Positions 1,604-9,661 are shown, counted from the first letter of the stretch. The stretch is 64,000 bases of DNA from Sulfurimonas sp. (GCF_026991475.1 NZ_JALXBK010000094.1:1-64000); one strand, 5' to 3'. Numbers and translations are program-made. Notes: generated from the sequence alone by a model not told the origin.

Positions 1604-2711
1604 GTTAGAAAAGAGATCATTTTACTCATTTTTAGCGCTTTATCTAAGCTCTTCTGCTATATTTATTCTATTGCTTGGTTACTGGTACTACGATGCGCAA
1701 AAAAATGCACTTGAGAGTGAAACCTACTACAAACTCGAACACCTTGCTGATAAACTTGCAGGAAGCATTATCAATGCGCAGATGAAAGGAACTGTCCTTC
1801 AATTACCAGAGCAAAAAGGCTTTGAGTACAGTCTCATTCCTACACAAGATCGCGCAAATTACCATGTCGGTTACTTTGAAAAAGATGCTCAAAAGGTCTT
1901 AGTATCTGCTGCGCCCCAAGAACATCTTAACATCGAGTACGTTGTAGTACGCACTAACACCTACTTTACGAAGCTGCATAAACTCCAAACGCAGGTACTT
2001 ACTGTAATGGGCATCAGTTTTGTGCTTATCGTACTTATCTCCTTTTTTCTCGCCAAACTCTTTATGAAACCACTGCATAACAGAATGAGTCAAATAGAGG
2101 GCTTCATTCAAGATGTCTCACATGAGCTTAACACCCCAATAACGGCGCTAAAAATGAGTGCGAGCAGAGCAATAAAAAAAGAGGTTTATGATAAAAAAAT
2201 ACTCACCAATATCTCTATAAGTACCAAACAGCTTGAAAGCATCTACAAATCACTCACCTTTTTAAACTTCAAGCAAAAAATGCAGGAGAGTGAACAGGTA
2301 AACCTAAAAGTAATACTAGAGAAAAATATCAGTTACTACGAAGAGCTCACCAACGCGAAACATATAGAGATAAAAAGTTCACTTGAAGATGTAACATTTA
2401 ACATCATCCCTGCGCGTGCCGAGCTGCTCTTTTCCAACCTCATCTCAAACGCCATTAAATACTCCATGCCAAACACAACCATAAGCATAACACTCACACC
2501 GGAGTATTTCACTATAAAAGATGAGGGAGTTGGCATATCAAAAGAGAAACTCGAAGCTATATTTGAACTCTACAAACGAGAATCTGATATTGCAGGAGGC
2601 TTTGGAGTGGGGCTAAACATTGTCAAACAAATTTGCGATGCGTACAACATCAAAGTAACTGTAAGCTCCGAACTTGAAAAGGGAAGTGAGTTTACACTCT
2701 TCTTCCCTTAA
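1596..2711 (+). CDS. Sensor histidine kinase
   Basis: H-box DVSHELNTPITALK, HATPase motifs; overlaps the response regulator by 8 nt. Confidence 0.9.
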   Translation: MNELEKRSFYSFLALYLSSSAIFILLLGYWYYDAQKNALESETYYKLEHLADKLAGSIINAQMKGTVLQLPEQKGFEYSLIPTQDRANYHVGYFEKDAQKVLVSAAPQEHLNIEYVVVRTNTYFTKLHKLQTQVLTVMGISFVLIVLISFFLAKLFMKPLHNRMSQIEGFIQDVSHELNTPITALKMSASRAIKKEVYDKKILTNISISTKQLESIYKSLTFLNFKQKMQESEQVNLKVILEKNISYYEELTNAKHIEIKSSLEDVTFNIIPARAELLFSNLISNAIKYSMPNTTISITLTPEYFTIKDEGVGISKEKLEAIFELYKRESDIAGGFGVGLNIVKQICDAYNIKVTVSSELEKGSEFTLFFP

Positions 2712-2713
2712 GC

Positions 2714-3793
2714 TCATAGCAGTTCAAGCACCTGACTTTTAAATTTTTTGTGTATAAACGGTGAAGTCATGGCAGAAAGCAATGCAGAATAATTTGGAGA
2801 AAAAGTAACTGTGTCTCCTACTTTAAGTCCACTTTGTTTAGCATCTAAAATCATATGATCACTACTACCACCCAAAATATCAACATCAATTTGGGGTGTT
2901 AATCCATCAATAGCAACATCTTCTCGACCAAGTCCAAGAATAACACGGGGGATTATTCCTCTATCTTCAAAGTGTGGTATTTCGCCAAAGGCATTCAGTG
3001 CCATCTCTCCATTTGGTAAAGAAGGTTTTCGTTTTGCCTCTATCACTTCTGCCACAATTTTAAAAGCATCTTGATAAAGACCCTCTATTTTATGTCTATA
3101 AAGAGTTTCAACTCCTAAAAAAATGGATTCGCCCAGTCGCACATTATTCACTCTTCCTGGACGGCCATTTTCCTGAAGCCAGATAAAGTTAGCAGAATTT
3201 CCACCTGAAATTATTGAGAGTTTAATACTAAATTGCTGTTCAATCATATCAGCTAGAAGCGAGAGATGGTTCATTTTTTCCTGATTGGGCTTTATACCAC
3301 CAAAGCAAGCAAAGTTTGCACCAATACCAATCAGTTCGATGTTAGGAAGTCGAAGAATTTTTTCTACATTGTCGTGAAGGTGTTCAGGGAGAATCCCTTC
3401 TCTTCTATCGCCCATCTCCACCATAAGAATGACTTGATGCTTTTTTTTCTGTTTGATTGCTTCCTTGTTCAAGGCTTTTATAACTACAAACTCTGTATTA
3501 AGAGAGATATCTACATAACGAACTACCCGTTTGACATCCGAGAGAAAAGGAGTGCGAATCAGACAAAAAGTTGCATCGACTCCAGCTTTTTTCATACGAA
3601 TAATATCCTCGATACGTGAATCACCGAGCAGGCTGATACCAGCATCTACAAGTGTCTGTGCAATATGGGCTTCCCCAAGATTCACTTTATCGATCCCCAT
3701 CACTTCAATACCAACTTCTCCCCACATCTCTTTGATGCGAGATGCATTGTGAGCAATTTTGTTTAAATCTATTTCAATATAAGGTGTTCTCAC
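2714..3793 (-). CDS. PLP-dependent amino-acid racemase (alanine/ornithine racemase Orr-like fold)
   Basis: PYIEIDLNKIAHNASRI...GIDKVNLGEAHIAQTLVDAG...GGNSANF...VRLGESIFLG; GTG start overlaps the upstream stop (TAGTG). Confidence 0.75.
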   Translation of the reverse strand: MRTPYIEIDLNKIAHNASRIKEMWGEVGIEVMGIDKVNLGEAHIAQTLVDAGISLLGDSRIEDIIRMKKAGVDATFCLIRTPFLSDVKRVVRYVDISLNTEFVVIKALNKEAIKQKKKHQVILMVEMGDRREGILPEHLHDNVEKILRLPNIELIGIGANFACFGGIKPNQEKMNHLSLLADMIEQQFSIKLSIISGGNSANFIWLQENGRPGRVNNVRLGESIFLGVETLYRHKIEGLYQDAFKIVAEVIEAKRKPSLPNGEMALNAFGEIPHFEDRGIIPRVILGLGREDVAIDGLTPQIDVDILGGSSDHMILDAKQSGLKVGDTVTFSPNYSALLSAMTSPFIHKKFKSQVLELL

Positions 3794-4869
3794 TATTTCT
3801 TTTTCTTCAAAAGTTCAGGAAATTGTCTCTCAATAGCATCTATGATGCATTTAGTATCTCGCTTAAGAACATCTGTTACCGCTCTTTTGTAGCTTTTTTT
3901 ATACTCCTCAATTGTCTTATCAATCATAGCATTATCCATATCTTCATGATTTAAAGTAATTGCTATTACTGGTGCATTAGTAAACATCTCATTGAGTTTA
4001 ATAGCATCTTCAAGTTTTGGTATTGGAAAATCTGGATAATCACCCATTATTTTACGCATTGGTGCATGTTGTAAAATAACGCCATTTGCCTGTGAACCAC
4101 GACTGATGGCACATGAACTTAGATAAGCTGGATGTGTCAAAGCACCCTGCCCTTCAATAATGAAAATATCGGATTGCTCTGCATCCCAAGCACGAAGTAT
4201 CTCCCCTTCGACAACGCCAGCAGCAAAATGTCCTGCTATTGCATCCATAGGTGCTCCGTATTTAGCTCCTTGCATAAGACCTGTTTGCCCTGTTGAAATC
4301 ATCACTGCTTTATAACCTACATTTATAAGAGCTTTTGTTACAATAGTTGCTGTAGTTCGTTTACCAATGGCACCGTCTGTTCCAAGTACAGCTATTCGAG
4401 GTGCAGTTACTTTGAGAATTTCTCCTGTAAAAACACGACGCAAATTTTTTCCCTCATATTTTCTTACATCTGTAACAGTTACACCATGTTGCTTAGCCTT
4501 TTTCATAAATGCCTTATCATCACTTAAAAAATGGTGCATACCACTTACAATGCTCAATCCTTTGCTCATCGCCTGTTCCATCAGAGTAATATCACCCTCA
4601 GAAAAATCACCAGTTAATGGTGCAATACCATAAATAAATGTTTGTGGTTTTTTTGAGAGAGAATTTAGAGCATCATCTAAATTTTTAAAAATCATAATAC
4701 CATTTGCAATGCCATCCAACACTTCACCCGCATCTTGTCCAGCAAATTGGCTATCTATAACACCAACTATTTCATATCGTTCAGAGTGACGGACAAGCCC
4801 ATTGGCTGTCTTTCCGTCCATCTGAGTAAAAAATCCTTCACTATACACAACTGCTGTTGCTTTTTTCAT
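3793..4869 (-). CDS. DUF1611-family protein (P-loop-like; DgcN-related)
   Basis: GTDGAIGKRTTATIVTKAL P-loop-like motif, FIIEGQGALTHPAYLSS...ISRGSQANGVILQHAPMR typical of DUF1611. Confidence 0.75.
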   Translation of the reverse strand: MKKATAVVYSEGFFTQMDGKTANGLVRHSERYEIVGVIDSQFAGQDAGEVLDGIANGIMIFKNLDDALNSLSKKPQTFIYGIAPLTGDFSEGDITLMEQAMSKGLSIVSGMHHFLSDDKAFMKKAKQHGVTVTDVRKYEGKNLRRVFTGEILKVTAPRIAVLGTDGAIGKRTTATIVTKALINVGYKAVMISTGQTGLMQGAKYGAPMDAIAGHFAAGVVEGEILRAWDAEQSDIFIIEGQGALTHPAYLSSCAISRGSQANGVILQHAPMRKIMGDYPDFPIPKLEDAIKLNEMFTNAPVIAITLNHEDMDNAMIDKTIEEYKKSYKRAVTDVLKRDTKCIIDAIERQFPELLKKKK

Positions 4870-4906
4870 TCTTATCCTTAAGATTTATATATCTTCTTCT
4901 TGAATC

Positions 4907-5941
4907 TTATTTTCTAAGTTCTTTCTCTTTTGCTATCAATGCAACGACACCATCATGCATATCTTGAACAGCTTGAACTTCTGTTATACCTAAGCGTCTA
5001 CGATTGCTAATGTCATAAACTCCACCCTCACTTTCACTGTGTTCACCATTAATTCCACGGATTTGAAGATGGTACTTGTCTGTAATAGCTTTAAATCTGT
5101 CCATATCTTCTGCAAGTTTTGGCAAGGCGATGTGAACACTAGCTCTCATGGCAGTTCCTAAATTCGTTGGACAACTTGTAATGTAACCTATATGCTCACT
5201 ATATGAAAAAGGTACTTTAGTTTCAATACTTTTAATTGCATTTACAAGACGAGTAAAGACCTCTTTTATATCTCCACCCTGTTGCATGGAGATAATACGA
5301 AGCTGATCCTCTTCATTGACCCAAACTAAAAATGTTTTATCATTATTGTGATAAATTCCACGACCAGCAGGCCAATCACGATTGAGTCCAGCAGCATCTA
5401 AAAAGCGATCTCCCTCTTTAAATAAAAAGTGATCTTTGATGAGTGAATCTTGCACCTCTTTTGACATCCCAAGAAGAGGATAATACTCTCCTTTAAGTTC
5501 ACCATCAAGTCTCTTAAGACCAGCAACAACACTTGATTCTACATGATCACGCTGCTCTTTTGATATAGCAGGGCCAAGAGGCATATTGTCCATATTTCTT
5601 CCAACACGAATACGAGTAGATAAAATAAACTCATTATCAGGGTCAGGATTTGGAGCATTCAAATCATCTGGGTTAAGATTGCTTTTATGAGAATCAGTTT
5701 TAGCAAATCCATGATACTCTTCAATAATAGGATCAAAAAGTTTGTCAAAAACATCATAAGACTCTTTGTCACCTGCATAGACACCTATGCCACTATCAAT
5801 ATTTTTCACACCTGAATTAATAGCTTGTTCAAGCGTAAAACCATTAGAAGTTTTTTTATTTTTAAGTGCTTCAAACACCTCAGGTGTTAGATATTTGCAA
5901 AGAAGAGATTTGCAATCTTTTGGAAAATTTGGGTAGTTCAT
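4907..5941 (-). CDS. ATP:guanidino phosphotransferase, full-length arginine-kinase type
   Basis: Complete N-domain (KYLTPEVFEALKNKKTSNGFTLEQAINSG..DSGIGVYAGD..YDVFDKLFDPIIEEYHGF) plus catalytic domain (STRIRVGRN; RDWPAGRGIYHNNDKTFLVWVNEEDQLRIISMQQGGD; SCPTNLGTAMRASVHIALPKL; GEHSESEGGVYDISNRRRLG). Confidence 0.95.
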   Translation of the reverse strand: MNYPNFPKDCKSLLCKYLTPEVFEALKNKKTSNGFTLEQAINSGVKNIDSGIGVYAGDKESYDVFDKLFDPIIEEYHGFAKTDSHKSNLNPDDLNAPNPDPDNEFILSTRIRVGRNMDNMPLGPAISKEQRDHVESSVVAGLKRLDGELKGEYYPLLGMSKEVQDSLIKDHFLFKEGDRFLDAAGLNRDWPAGRGIYHNNDKTFLVWVNEEDQLRIISMQQGGDIKEVFTRLVNAIKSIETKVPFSYSEHIGYITSCPTNLGTAMRASVHIALPKLAEDMDRFKAITDKYHLQIRGINGEHSESEGGVYDISNRRRLGITEVQAVQDMHDGVVALIAKEKELRK

Positions 5942-6162
5942 TATATATCCTTTTTAGTAAAATTGAGCATCAAGTTGTTTTGTAACACTTGAGTAGTATT
6001 TATATTCCAACGCTCTATGCAGTAGCTTGAAAAATCCTCATATCCTTGCTTATAAAGCTCCATCTCTTGAATTACTTCAAAAGCCTTATAAAGCTTTTGC
6101 AAGTTTTGCATCTCATCAGAAATGATAGCTTCGCATTGCTGTAAAAGTACAGTTTGACTCAT
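5941..6162 (-). CDS. Small protein of unknown function (73 aa), between argB and the arginine kinase
   Basis: ATGA overlap with argB and TAATG overlap with the kinase support real coupled translation; no recognised domain. Confidence 0.75.
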   Translation of the reverse strand: MSQTVLLQQCEAIISDEMQNLQKLYKAFEVIQEMELYKQGYEDFSSYCIERWNINTTQVLQNNLMLNFTKKDI

Positions 6163-7010
6163 GATTTTATCACCGTTCCAACCCCCTCACTTGTAAAGAT
6201 TTCAAGTAACAATGCATGCTCAATTCGCCCATCAATTATGTGAGCTTTCATGACACCACCATTAACGGCATCAAGGCAAGCATCTACCTTTGGGATCATA
6301 CCTCCATCTATAACGCCATTAGCTTTGAGAGTCTTGATTTGTTCTTCATTTAGTGTATGAATAATCTCTTTTTTATTGTTCATTACACCTGGCGTGTCTG
6401 TCATAAAAATAATTTTTCGTGCCTTAAGACTAGCAGCAATATGACCTGCAGCGATATCTGCATTTATATTAAATCCAGGATGTCCATTTTGATTTGATGA
6501 TGCTACAGGTGCTATGACAGGAATAAATTTTTCAGCTATTAAATTATTAATCACTTGAGGGTCTACTTTTGTCAGTTCTCCTACGTAGCCATATTTTTGC
6601 ATATCTATCGGTTTGGCTTCAAGCATTGAAGCATCTTTACCACTTATACCTATAGCCTTTGCACCATATTCATTCAGCAAAGCAGTAATCTCTTTGTTAA
6701 TACTTCCAGAGAGAACCATTTCAACTACTTCCATCACCTTTTCATCTGTTACACGCAGTCCATCTATAAAATGAGAGCCGATTTTAAGACGCTCTAACAT
6801 ATCTCCAATAGCTCTACCACCACCATGTATAATAACAGGCTTAATACCCACCAAATACATCAGCACAATATCTCTTGCGAACTTTTCTTTAAGTTCGGGA
6901 GTTATCTGCGCTGAACCACCATACTTAATGACAAATATTTGATTTGCATAGCGTTTTATGTATGGCAAAGCATCAAGCAATACTCTTACTTGGTTAATTT
7001 TTTGTTTCAT
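6159..7010 (-). CDS. argB: N-acetyl-L-glutamate kinase
   Basis: FVIKYGGSAQ...VIIHGGGRAIGDML...GFNINADIAAGHIAASLKARKIIFMTDTPGV. Confidence 0.95.
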   Translation of the reverse strand: MKQKINQVRVLLDALPYIKRYANQIFVIKYGGSAQITPELKEKFARDIVLMYLVGIKPVIIHGGGRAIGDMLERLKIGSHFIDGLRVTDEKVMEVVEMVLSGSINKEITALLNEYGAKAIGISGKDASMLEAKPIDMQKYGYVGELTKVDPQVINNLIAEKFIPVIAPVASSNQNGHPGFNINADIAAGHIAASLKARKIIFMTDTPGVMNNKKEIIHTLNEEQIKTLKANGVIDGGMIPKVDACLDAVNGGVMKAHIIDGRIEHALLLEIFTSEGVGTVIKS

Positions 7011-7048: not shown

Positions 7049-7054
7049 ATTATA
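7049..7054 (-). promoter_or_regulatory. Candidate sigma70 -10 box for the argB/arginine kinase operon
   Basis: TATAAT on the minus strand, 38 nt upstream of the argB ATG. Confidence 0.5.
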
Positions 7055-7088
7055 GTTGATAAAAATGTAAGAGTTGTGAAATGTAGTT

Positions 7089-8957
7089 TTATTTTCTTTG
7101 TGGAAGAGTAAGTTTAAAGCAGGCTCCATTATCTGTATTGTATGCAATAATTTTGCCATTCATTTTCTGTTCTACAATAAGTTGCGACATATAAAGACCT
7201 ATACCTATACCACCATCCTTATATTTTGTACTGGTATAAGGTTTAAATATTTTTGGCAATATACTTAACTCAATACCACCACCATTATCGCAAAACAGCA
7301 CATTAAGCATACCATTTTCAGAACTTATATCTATATTTATTCTACCTTGCTGCGTTTGTCTGGCAAGTGCATCTTTAGAGTTATTAAGCAAGTTAAGTAT
7401 GACCTGCGAAAATTCACTAGCAGAACCTTGTATAAAATAAGTGTTTGGTTTTGCATCAAAATGAACGCTAATATGGTAATAATCAAGTGCTGCTGAAACT
7501 ATTTGAATAGCTTTTTGTATGCAGAGAACTAAATCAAATTTTTCATCAACTCTGTTAGGGCTAAAAAAAAGTCTAAAATCATCAATAGTCGTTGACATAT
7601 ATTTTATTATTTCATTTGCTTTGTCCAGACGCACCTTTAAATACTTCTCATCAAGTTCATCAAAGGCATATGCAGATTCTAAATTCATAAAGATACCACC
7701 AAGTTGTGCCAATGGCTGACGCCATTGATGGGCGATATGTCCTATCATCTCACCCATAGAAGCCATTTTTGATTGTTGCATCATAAGGTACTCTTGTTCA
7801 ACTCTTAATTTATTTTCTTCTTTTATCTCATTTTTAAGTTGTTGCTTAATAGATTCATGTTCTGTAACATCTTTAGCAATCAACTTAATGTAGTTACTAT
7901 TGATATTTTTTGAGAGAGAACCTGAAAATTCAAAGTTGTACCCATTAATTTTCAGAGCGAAATTAATGATTTTTTTCTCTTTGTTGAGAGTGCTATAAAG
8001 TTTTTTCCAGCTCTCATGAAATAAATACTCTGGATGTTTTTCAACTGCTTCACTACCAAAATATTCATATGCTTTACGATTCATCCAATGAATAACCTGT
8101 TGTTTTGGTGCATCATAAATCTCAATAATAGCTTCAGGAAGAAAATCCATTATCTCTTTTGCATGACGAAGTTTTATCTCCAACATACGAGCAACATTAC
8201 CTTTGACATGTTTAAAAATATCTCTGTTAGTTAAAAGTGCATACATCTCGCCTTGTTCATTAGTTACAAGTACGCGTCTTAAACTTTTTTTTCGCATTAG
8301 TGCTATGACCGTTGTTATTGCCTCATCAATAGATACACTCACAACAGGGGAGGACATCAAACTCTCAACAGATGTATTTAAATCAATATGTTTATAACTT
8401 GCATTGAGAATATCTTTTTCAGTAACAATTCCTACTACCTTGGCTTCTTTTGCAACTATAACAGAGCCTATCTTAGAATCTGACATCTGCTTTAGAGCAT
8501 CAAAAAGAGTTGTTTTTGGAGATACAGCGACAATACTTACATCATGATTTAAAAGATCACTAACCTTCAAATCAACCTTATAAACATCCTCTTCCAAAAA
8601 AGAAAAAAGATCCTCTTGGCACACGGTACCTGCATATTTTCCTGCATCATCTACAAGAACCAAACGGCGTATATTATTTGTCACTACAAGTTCAAAAGCT
8701 GATTCTACAGGTCTGTTACAATGAGCCGTTATAACAGGTTTTTTTGCATATGGTACTATTTTTTCATCAAAACAAATACCTTTTTGAAGTAGCTCTAATA
8801 TCATACTCTCAGTAACTATTCCAACAGGAAATTTTTTGTTTAGAATTACTACAGAACCATTGTTGTTTTTTAGCATACAATCCATTGCCTGAGATATTGT
8901 AGCGGTATCTACAATAGAAAAGTTTTTTTTGTGAGCTATATTAGAAAGAGTGTTCAT
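7089..8957 (-). CDS. Sensor histidine kinase with tandem CBS-domain pairs and a PAS-like domain
   Basis: Repeated CBS motifs (VVGIVTEKDIL, SSPVVSVSIDEAITTVIALMRKKSLRRVLVTN), HisKA MIGHIAHQWRQPLAQLGGIF, HATPase NLLNNSKDAL...GIGLYMS. Confidence 0.9.
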   Translation of the reverse strand: MNTLSNIAHKKNFSIVDTATISQAMDCMLKNNNGSVVILNKKFPVGIVTESMILELLQKGICFDEKIVPYAKKPVITAHCNRPVESAFELVVTNNIRRLVLVDDAGKYAGTVCQEDLFSFLEEDVYKVDLKVSDLLNHDVSIVAVSPKTTLFDALKQMSDSKIGSVIVAKEAKVVGIVTEKDILNASYKHIDLNTSVESLMSSPVVSVSIDEAITTVIALMRKKSLRRVLVTNEQGEMYALLTNRDIFKHVKGNVARMLEIKLRHAKEIMDFLPEAIIEIYDAPKQQVIHWMNRKAYEYFGSEAVEKHPEYLFHESWKKLYSTLNKEKKIINFALKINGYNFEFSGSLSKNINSNYIKLIAKDVTEHESIKQQLKNEIKEENKLRVEQEYLMMQQSKMASMGEMIGHIAHQWRQPLAQLGGIFMNLESAYAFDELDEKYLKVRLDKANEIIKYMSTTIDDFRLFFSPNRVDEKFDLVLCIQKAIQIVSAALDYYHISVHFDAKPNTYFIQGSASEFSQVILNLLNNSKDALARQTQQGRINIDISSENGMLNVLFCDNGGGIELSILPKIFKPYTSTKYKDGGIGIGLYMSQLIVEQKMNGKIIAYNTDNGACFKLTLPQRK

Positions 8958-9661
8958 TTATTTATCCCATCATAAAGACGATACCCGATGGCACTTATGT
9001 TTTCAATAATATCAGAATGTGTTTTTTTACGGATATTTCTTATTTGTGCACGAATAGCATCTTTGCTCATTGGTCTCTCTTGCCACACTTCATACTCTAA
9101 GACATCATAAGAGAGGGTCTGCTCTTTATTTGCTATAAAAAACTCCAGTAACTGCATCTCTTTTCGACGCAGATGTATCTCTTTTTTTTCTAGTAAAACT
9201 AACTTTGAAGCTTTATTATAAAAGTAGCCTTTGCCAAGATCTATGAGCTGAGTATTTTCATCATTGTTGTACTCTAAAGCAGCTTTACTAAGAGCATTAA
9301 CCAACTCAATACTAGTAACAGGTTTTACAAGATAGCGAGTAAGTGTCAGCTCAACAGCTGTAAGTAAAAACTCTTTATCTGTATATGCAGTCGATATAAT
9401 AATACGAGTTTTTAAATCATTCTTTCGCACAATCTTTGCTAAATCAATACCACTCATACCTGGCAAATTTATATCCAAAAGAAGAATATCAGGTTTTATT
9501 TTTTCATACAGTTTCAAGCCATCTTCTGCATTATTGGCCAAATACAAACGAGAGGTATATCTTTTTAAAAACTCTGCAATATGCATTTGAATATTTTCAT
9601 CATCTTCAACATATAAAATAGTTAAATTTTTAATTGTGGAGGCAAAAAGAGAGTGGTTCAT
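8954..9661 (-). CDS. Response regulator with winged-helix output
   Basis: LTILYVEDDENIQ..ILLLDINLPGMSG; 4-nt overlap with the kinase. Confidence 0.9.
   Translation of the reverse strand: MNHSLFASTIKNLTILYVEDDENIQMHIAEFLKRYTSRLYLANNAEDGLKLYEKIKPDILLLDINLPGMSGIDLAKIVRKNDLKTRIIISTAYTDKEFLLTAVELTLTRYLVKPVTSIELVNALSKAALEYNNDENTQLIDLGKGYFYNKASKLVLLEKKEIHLRRKEMQLLEFFIANKEQTLSYDVLEYEVWQERPMSKDAIRAQIRNIRKKTHSDIIENISAIGYRLYDGINK

Follow-up and report, generated by a model that had tools for sequence, protein, structure and literature searches.

Organization of the locus

The window, that is, the whole stretch of DNA analysed (64,000 nt), belongs to a Campylobacterota assembly (G000) of 2.07 Mb in 131 contigs. 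Five minus-strand genes lie at 2714-7010, and the ORF check on the sequence recovered all of them together with their junctions. The first gene, argB2 (6159..7010), encodes a second, AK-linked N-acetyl-L-glutamate (NAG) kinase (TIGR00761) and overlaps orf73 (5941..6162), which encodes a small helical protein of 73 aa, at an ATGA junction. A TAATG junction, with one base common to both genes, joins orf73 to the arginine kinase (AK) gene (4907..5941; 344 aa, PF02807 and PF00217). After a spacing of 37 nt, AK is followed by a gene for a DUF1611 protein with Rossmann and P-loop regions (3793..4869; PF17396 and PF07755), which overlaps at TAGTG the gene for a PLP enzyme of the alanine/ornithine racemase family (2714..3793; PF01168). 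These last two are treated below as accessory genes 1 and 2. No terminator or separate promoter was seen in the 37-nt gap in a consensus scan, which performed at chance level overall. The coupling of five genes through these four junctions, proposed in an earlier note on this DNA, was thus borne out, and the TATAAT that the note had placed upstream of argB is present at 7049-7054.

The unit was found to extend upstream beyond these genes, on the same strand. A conserved promoter element (7049..7081) consists of a tandem repeat, TTTCACAACTC followed by TTACATTTTTA, and then the TATAAT (-10) box. Next come the genes for a soluble sensor histidine kinase of 622 aa with four CBS domains and HATPase_c (7089..8957) and for a response regulator of the OmpR/PhoB type of 235 aa with Response_reg and Trans_reg_C domains (8954..9661), which overlap by 4 bases. 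The nearest AK relative sharing the gene set of the window is at locus L009 in genome G014, which is labelled Sulfurimonas. At the other end of the unit, another OmpR-type regulator and a membrane histidine kinase are encoded at 956-2711, convergent with the racemase gene and 2 nt away from it.

The arginine kinase and its distribution

Both phosphagen kinase domains were present in AK, with scores above the cut-offs (PF02807, 108.6 bits; PF00217, 262.3 bits), and phmmer comparison with solved arginine kinases gave E values down to 1e-252. The arginine-type specificity loop NIDSGIGVYAGD and the NEEDQLR, CPTNLGT and GEHSES motifs are kept. By its domains and motifs, AK is a canonical two-domain phosphagen kinase with standard L-arginine specificity motifs. 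Assignment to the protein-arginine kinase McsB was rejected because the score was 142 bits against a cut-off of 500 and because the phosphagen N-domain is present. The idea of a virus-borne AK was also rejected, since the AK query found no relative in IMG/VR.

Arginine kinases are known in bacteria, including a Campylobacterota case in Sulfurovum, and their origin is debated according to a review (PMC6429109). The AK of the window is the same two-domain enzyme as the known bacterial ones, such as those of PE36 and Sulfurovum (PMC6429109), for which the open-access literature searched yielded neither an operon nor a dedicated argB, an orf73 or a partner of the two-component type.

AK was present in 50 of 399 genomes of the order, distributed over 18 of 87 genera. 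Because argB2 was absent from 40 of the 55 distinct AK loci in the AK tree (some of these being contig edges), AK does not need argB2. The loci with a solo AK do not form a separate family, since carriers of argB2 are interleaved among them on the tree. This pattern fits one gain of argB2 and several losses.

A second phosphagen kinase, approximately 41% identical, was observed in tandem with the main AK in one carrier (L020, 9096-10280) and on a different contig from the main AK in another genome (G436:C63:17991-19037). A contig labelled Thermus/Deinococcus (L031) encodes a Campylobacterota-like AK and is probably mis-binned or reflects a transfer.

A second NAG kinase gene linked to AK

ArgB2 scored 261.6 bits against TIGR00761 (cut-off 151.3). 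Another argB, 67% identical to argB2, was found in G000 in a housekeeping context (C78, 11642-12481). In a tree of 40 rows, all 14 AK-linked ArgBs tested formed one clade with support of 99/92, and the C78 copy fell outside it. Among the 31 AK genomes searched, the carriers of argB2 also had an additional argB, except G413, where none was found, and G418, where there is a contig-end fragment; AK genomes without a linked argB had one argB, or none in the case of G420. Consequently, the link between arginine biosynthesis and a phosphagen kinase drawn in the earlier note is stronger than was claimed, argB2 being an extra, AK-specific paralogue.

The whole of ArgB2 could be aligned with the solved NAG kinases of Pseudomonas aeruginosa (2buf) and Thermotoga maritima (2bty). 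Because the N-terminal helix and the C-terminal EIFTxxGxGT segment of arginine-sensitive hexameric NAG kinases are conserved in this full-length alignment, ArgB2 should be an arginine-sensitive-type NAG kinase. It differs from 2buf and 2bty in being a second genomic copy, in having its own clade and in lying inside an AK operon. Few diagnostic differences separate ArgB2 from the housekeeping ArgB, and those in the window (Y21, S79, V143, M203 and A266) are conservative. The idea that ArgB2 is a feedback-deaf copy was rejected, since the segments of the arginine site are retained and the sequence bears no sign of escape from feedback.

The orf73 family

Alignment of 13 orf73 homologues revealed nine invariant residues (L7, Q9, C10, E11, I13, I14, A27, I31 and W52), and at least 12 loci besides the window encode a conserved version of the protein. 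In the AF2 model (mean pLDDT of 82), a long helix is followed by three short helices. No fold match to this model was found in the PDB, and no family match to the protein in Pfam or NCBIfam. A relationship to helix-turn-helix proteins, suspected from an LYxxxYxDFxxYCxxRW motif, was rejected, as it received no profile support.

A profile search detected orf73 in 10 of 329 genomes of the order, each time between argB2 and AK. Its co-occurrence with AK gave a Fisher probability of approximately 3e-10, assuming that the AK frequency of the 399-genome draw holds in the 329-genome draw. Judging by this distribution and by the alignment, orf73 is a real protein family found only in argB2-AK cassettes, the exceptions being remnants and one locus at a contig edge. 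The 73-aa ORF, listed in the earlier note as a member of the operon, thereby gained the standing of a recurrent family. It is most likely a partner of ArgB2 or an operon-specific regulator. Because solo AK loci lack orf73, except for the remnants and the contig-edge case (L014), its partner is likely to be ArgB2 rather than AK.

Conservation and loss of the cassette

Reading of the AK loci showed that the order argB2-orf73-AK recurs in 17 distinct Campylobacterota genomes of several families (the window, L009, L013, L016, L017, L018, L020, L023, L024, L025, L030, L033, L071, L072, L163, L164 and L202). The genomes surveyed were mostly metagenome bins. A response regulator and a histidine kinase of the 622-aa type lie directly upstream in most of these carriers. 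Other genes separate the kinase from argB2 in L013 (genome G407) and L024 (G309), and no histidine kinase of this type was found upstream of argB2 in L020 and L163. Genomes G243 and G360 have the orders regulator-kinase-AK and AK-regulator-kinase, respectively, both without argB2, and in G286 the regulator and kinase genes are present with no AK alongside. Thus, of the neighbourhood suggested in the earlier note, conservation with the kinase was established for argB-orf73-AK, and not for the DUF1611-Orr genes, which were found at three Campylobacterota loci.

Two Sulfurimonas bins have kept AK next to traces of the other genes. In G072 (L011), a fusion joins the initial 72 nt around the start of the regulator gene to orf73 from approximately codon 40 onward. 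In G023 (L007), the upstream region of a TPR gene leads, through a short stretch, into the final 24 nt of orf73. These fused remnants indicate that the cassette was once present in both genomes and that regulator, kinase, argB2 and orf73 have been lost as a block, independently, at least twice, with AK retained. It appears that, in Campylobacterota, argB2-orf73-AK together with the regulator and kinase genes has for the most part been passed on, transferred and lost as one unit. The architecture of the cassette, namely its gene content and order, the second argB and its clade, the promoter element described below and the deletions, is nearly certain.

The promoter element and the two-component pair

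The pattern ATTTCACAACTCTTACATTT-N8-TAnaaT was found with 0-2 mismatches in all 15 argB2 promoters examined. At most one mismatch was seen in 12 of these 15, and in 5 of 3000 Markov-shuffled sequences. A search of the 2.07-Mb G000 assembly with one mismatch allowed returned a single match, the perfect copy at 7049-7081, and the reversed-pattern control returned none. Perfect sites at argB2 were also present in G014, G232, G309, G407, G409, G410, G423 and G426; G309 and G407 have one extra perfect site each, ahead of the genes that separate the kinase from argB2. The pattern search found no perfect element in G243 and G360, which have the regulator, the kinase and AK without argB2, and because of this absence the control of AK must differ in these two genomes.

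These data bear on the possibility that argB2 and orf73 are carried along as neutral passengers, a chance argB duplicate having settled beside AK as a redundant copy, with the two-component system controlling something else. It would be consistent with this that many AK loci lack argB2, which has been deleted at least twice, and that ArgB2 is without visible functional divergence. However, neutral passengers would hardly be expected to keep a fixed order, a monophyletic argB2 across several families and an orf73 that is always in between, and the nearly unique element is the only clear block common to argB2 upstream regions across genera, where the remaining intergenic DNA is hard to align. 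This explanation is considered unlikely.

The regulator combines a receiver with a winged-helix Trans_reg_C domain and is encoded in the same unit as its kinase, as in two-component operons of the OmpR/PhoB type; its ortholog lies upstream of argB2-orf73-AK in many loci. It is a candidate activator of the operon. The histidine kinase has no strong hydrophobic stretch (maximal Kyte-Doolittle value of 1.43). It was found at an identity of at least 46% in 9 of 200 genomes of the order, 8 of which carry AK, a co-occurrence with a Fisher probability of approximately 2e-7, assuming that the AK frequency of the 399-genome draw holds in the 200-genome draw.

Pho boxes are direct repeats with an 11-bp period close to the -10 box, and the spacing of the element, a direct repeat with the same period shortly before the -10 box of argB2, resembles that of Pho-box promoters. 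With PhoB/OmpR-type activation the window has in common this repeat approximately 10 bp before the -10 box and an OmpR-type regulator in cis, whereas the half-sites, the nearly single-site regulon and the soluble CBS histidine kinase are different. The regulator might therefore be supposed to answer phosphate or phosphonate status, not energy charge, with phosphoarginine as the phosphate store. Apart from the Pho-box-like repeat, this supposition could appeal to the second element of G407, which precedes genes for a cytidylyltransferase-domain protein and a PhnW-like transaminase and then Pot/PhnT-like transport genes. However, those genes score below the PhnW and PhnT cut-offs and look equally like polyamine transport genes, the second element of G309 instead precedes potassium-channel/TrkA-like genes, and a soluble kinase with four CBS domains is unlike PhoR. 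Control by phosphate status is thus regarded as rather improbable.

The DUF1611-racemase pair

The DUF1611 protein has both the PF17396 and PF07755 domains and a P-loop (GTDGAIGKRTT). It scored 150.9 bits against the DgcN model NF041892, and the racemase scored 402.2 bits against the Orr model NF040742, each below a cut-off of 480. The presumed PLP lysine of the racemase, K36, is kept in all seven homologues aligned. The labels of DgcN relative and Orr-like racemase given to these proteins in the earlier note therefore hold at the level of the superfamily (DUF1611/DgcN and Ala_racemase_N, PF01168) and not at that of the specific enzymes. The partner likewise differs from the DgcN-DgcA D-glutamate pathway, being a PLP enzyme of the alanine/ornithine racemase family and not DgcA.

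The pair was found downstream of AK in three Campylobacterota cases, i.e., the window, L009 and, after a carbonic anhydrase gene, L034. Full-length DUF1611 was present in 1 of 397 genomes of the phylum and in 1 of 299 genomes of the order. PF07755 matches in 33 other Campylobacterota were rejected as DUF1611 proteins, since they are similar only over P-loop stretches of approximately 50 aa in frames of mostly 210-250 aa. On plasmids of Vibrio, Ruegeria, Phaeobacter and Aliiroseovarius, the genes for the best plasmid relatives of the DUF1611 protein (45-49%) overlap a racemase gene in the same way, and no AK is annotated within the 9-kb flanks of these pairs. Vibrio plasmids carry both a DUF1611 protein of the window type (45-48%) and an annotated DgcN (29%). 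The DUF1611-racemase pair is read as an independent mobile two-gene module that hitch-hikes on the AK cassette here.

The two proteins had been suggested to serve the phosphagen pathway, either by making or regenerating a guanidino phosphagen of D- or N-acyl type or by keeping glutamate and arginine in balance. By its spacing the pair belongs to the same transcriptional unit, all three Campylobacterota cases are just downstream of AK, and DgcN relatives convert D-glutamate toward L-glutamate, close to the substrate of ArgB (PMC12363236, PMC10845958). However, the pair occurs at only three of the AK loci read, its plasmid counterparts are coupled without an annotated AK nearby, the protein lies far below the DgcN cut-off while Vibrio plasmids hold both types, and AK keeps L-arginine motifs. 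A place in the core of the phosphagen pathway was rejected on the rarity of the pair and on the plasmid arrangement. Comparison of genomes gave no support to the D- or N-acyl variant, and any phosphagen role of the pair is highly improbable.

At plasmid loci of marine Vibrio and Roseobacter (L178-L183), several DUF1611-racemase pairs had genes of the heat-shock and stress response (GroEL/ES, Hsp20, HflKC and NhaA) in their vicinity.

Proposed function of the cassette

Enzymes of the arginine kinase family store phosphate as phosphoarginine and return it to ADP. The locus is best explained as an arginine-phosphagen cassette that has its own NAG kinase and a two-component switch and to which the DUF1611-racemase pair has been appended; for the whole functional chain, read from sequence, the probability is estimated at roughly 0.6. 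The CBS domains of the soluble histidine kinase would serve to sense an adenylate or energy signal, and the kinase would then, as the pairing of the two proteins suggests, phosphorylate the regulator. Layout, conservation and uniqueness of the element suggest that the regulator would bind the tandem repeat of 11-bp period and turn on argB2-orf73-AK. ArgB2, identified by its sequence, would add NAG kinase capacity and thus arginine supply when AK is made, and AK would store phosphate as phosphoarginine and give it back to ADP, buffering ATP. The DUF1611 protein and the racemase, independently acquired, would act on some other amino acid and be dispensable for the phosphagen function. A more specific version is offered tentatively: a CBS switch sensing energy charge may drive both AK and ArgB2, the latter as a dedicated enzyme for the committed step of phosphagen synthesis, in a unit that is complete, regulates itself and can be transferred, with orf73 coupling ArgB2 or relieving its inhibition. 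That ArgB2 has turned to a different AK-linked substrate, some other acid in acylated or carbamoylated form, as its distinct clade and partner protein orf73 might suggest, is scarcely credible, since the aligned segments match the Pseudomonas and Thermotoga NAG kinases and the few diagnostic changes are conservative.

If the arginine-phosphagen reading is true, the host, a bacterium of marine type, may make arginine for phosphate storage on demand. A cassette tying AK to its own enzyme of arginine synthesis and to a sensor would give access to the purpose of bacterial arginine kinases and to the regulation of the phosphagen pool, by way of an inducing signal to seek, a defined promoter element, the small protein orf73 and natural deletion variants. 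No description of this combination was found in the open-access literature searched, subscription papers lying outside the search.

Other genes near AK

Several further genes were observed close to AK or argB2. A carbonic anhydrase gene lies directly downstream of AK in L013, L024, L034 and L170, and in broken form in L016; it also occurs without argB2. Bicarbonate from this enzyme could go into the carbamoyl phosphate used to synthesize arginine. In L010 (5938-7976), L016 (5741-7801) and L030 (9122-11167), AK has genes for DUF6394 and a TrkA-type channel as neighbours, and in L024 (G309; 1632-3922) different potassium-channel/TrkA-like genes, served by a separate copy of the promoter element, lie between the kinase and argB2. 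A link to potassium is possible. In L240 (3399-5980) and L013 (1222-5861), the genes between the kinase and argB2 encode a cytidylyltransferase-domain protein, a PhnW-like transaminase and a Pot-type transporter, and a second perfect promoter element stands in front of them.
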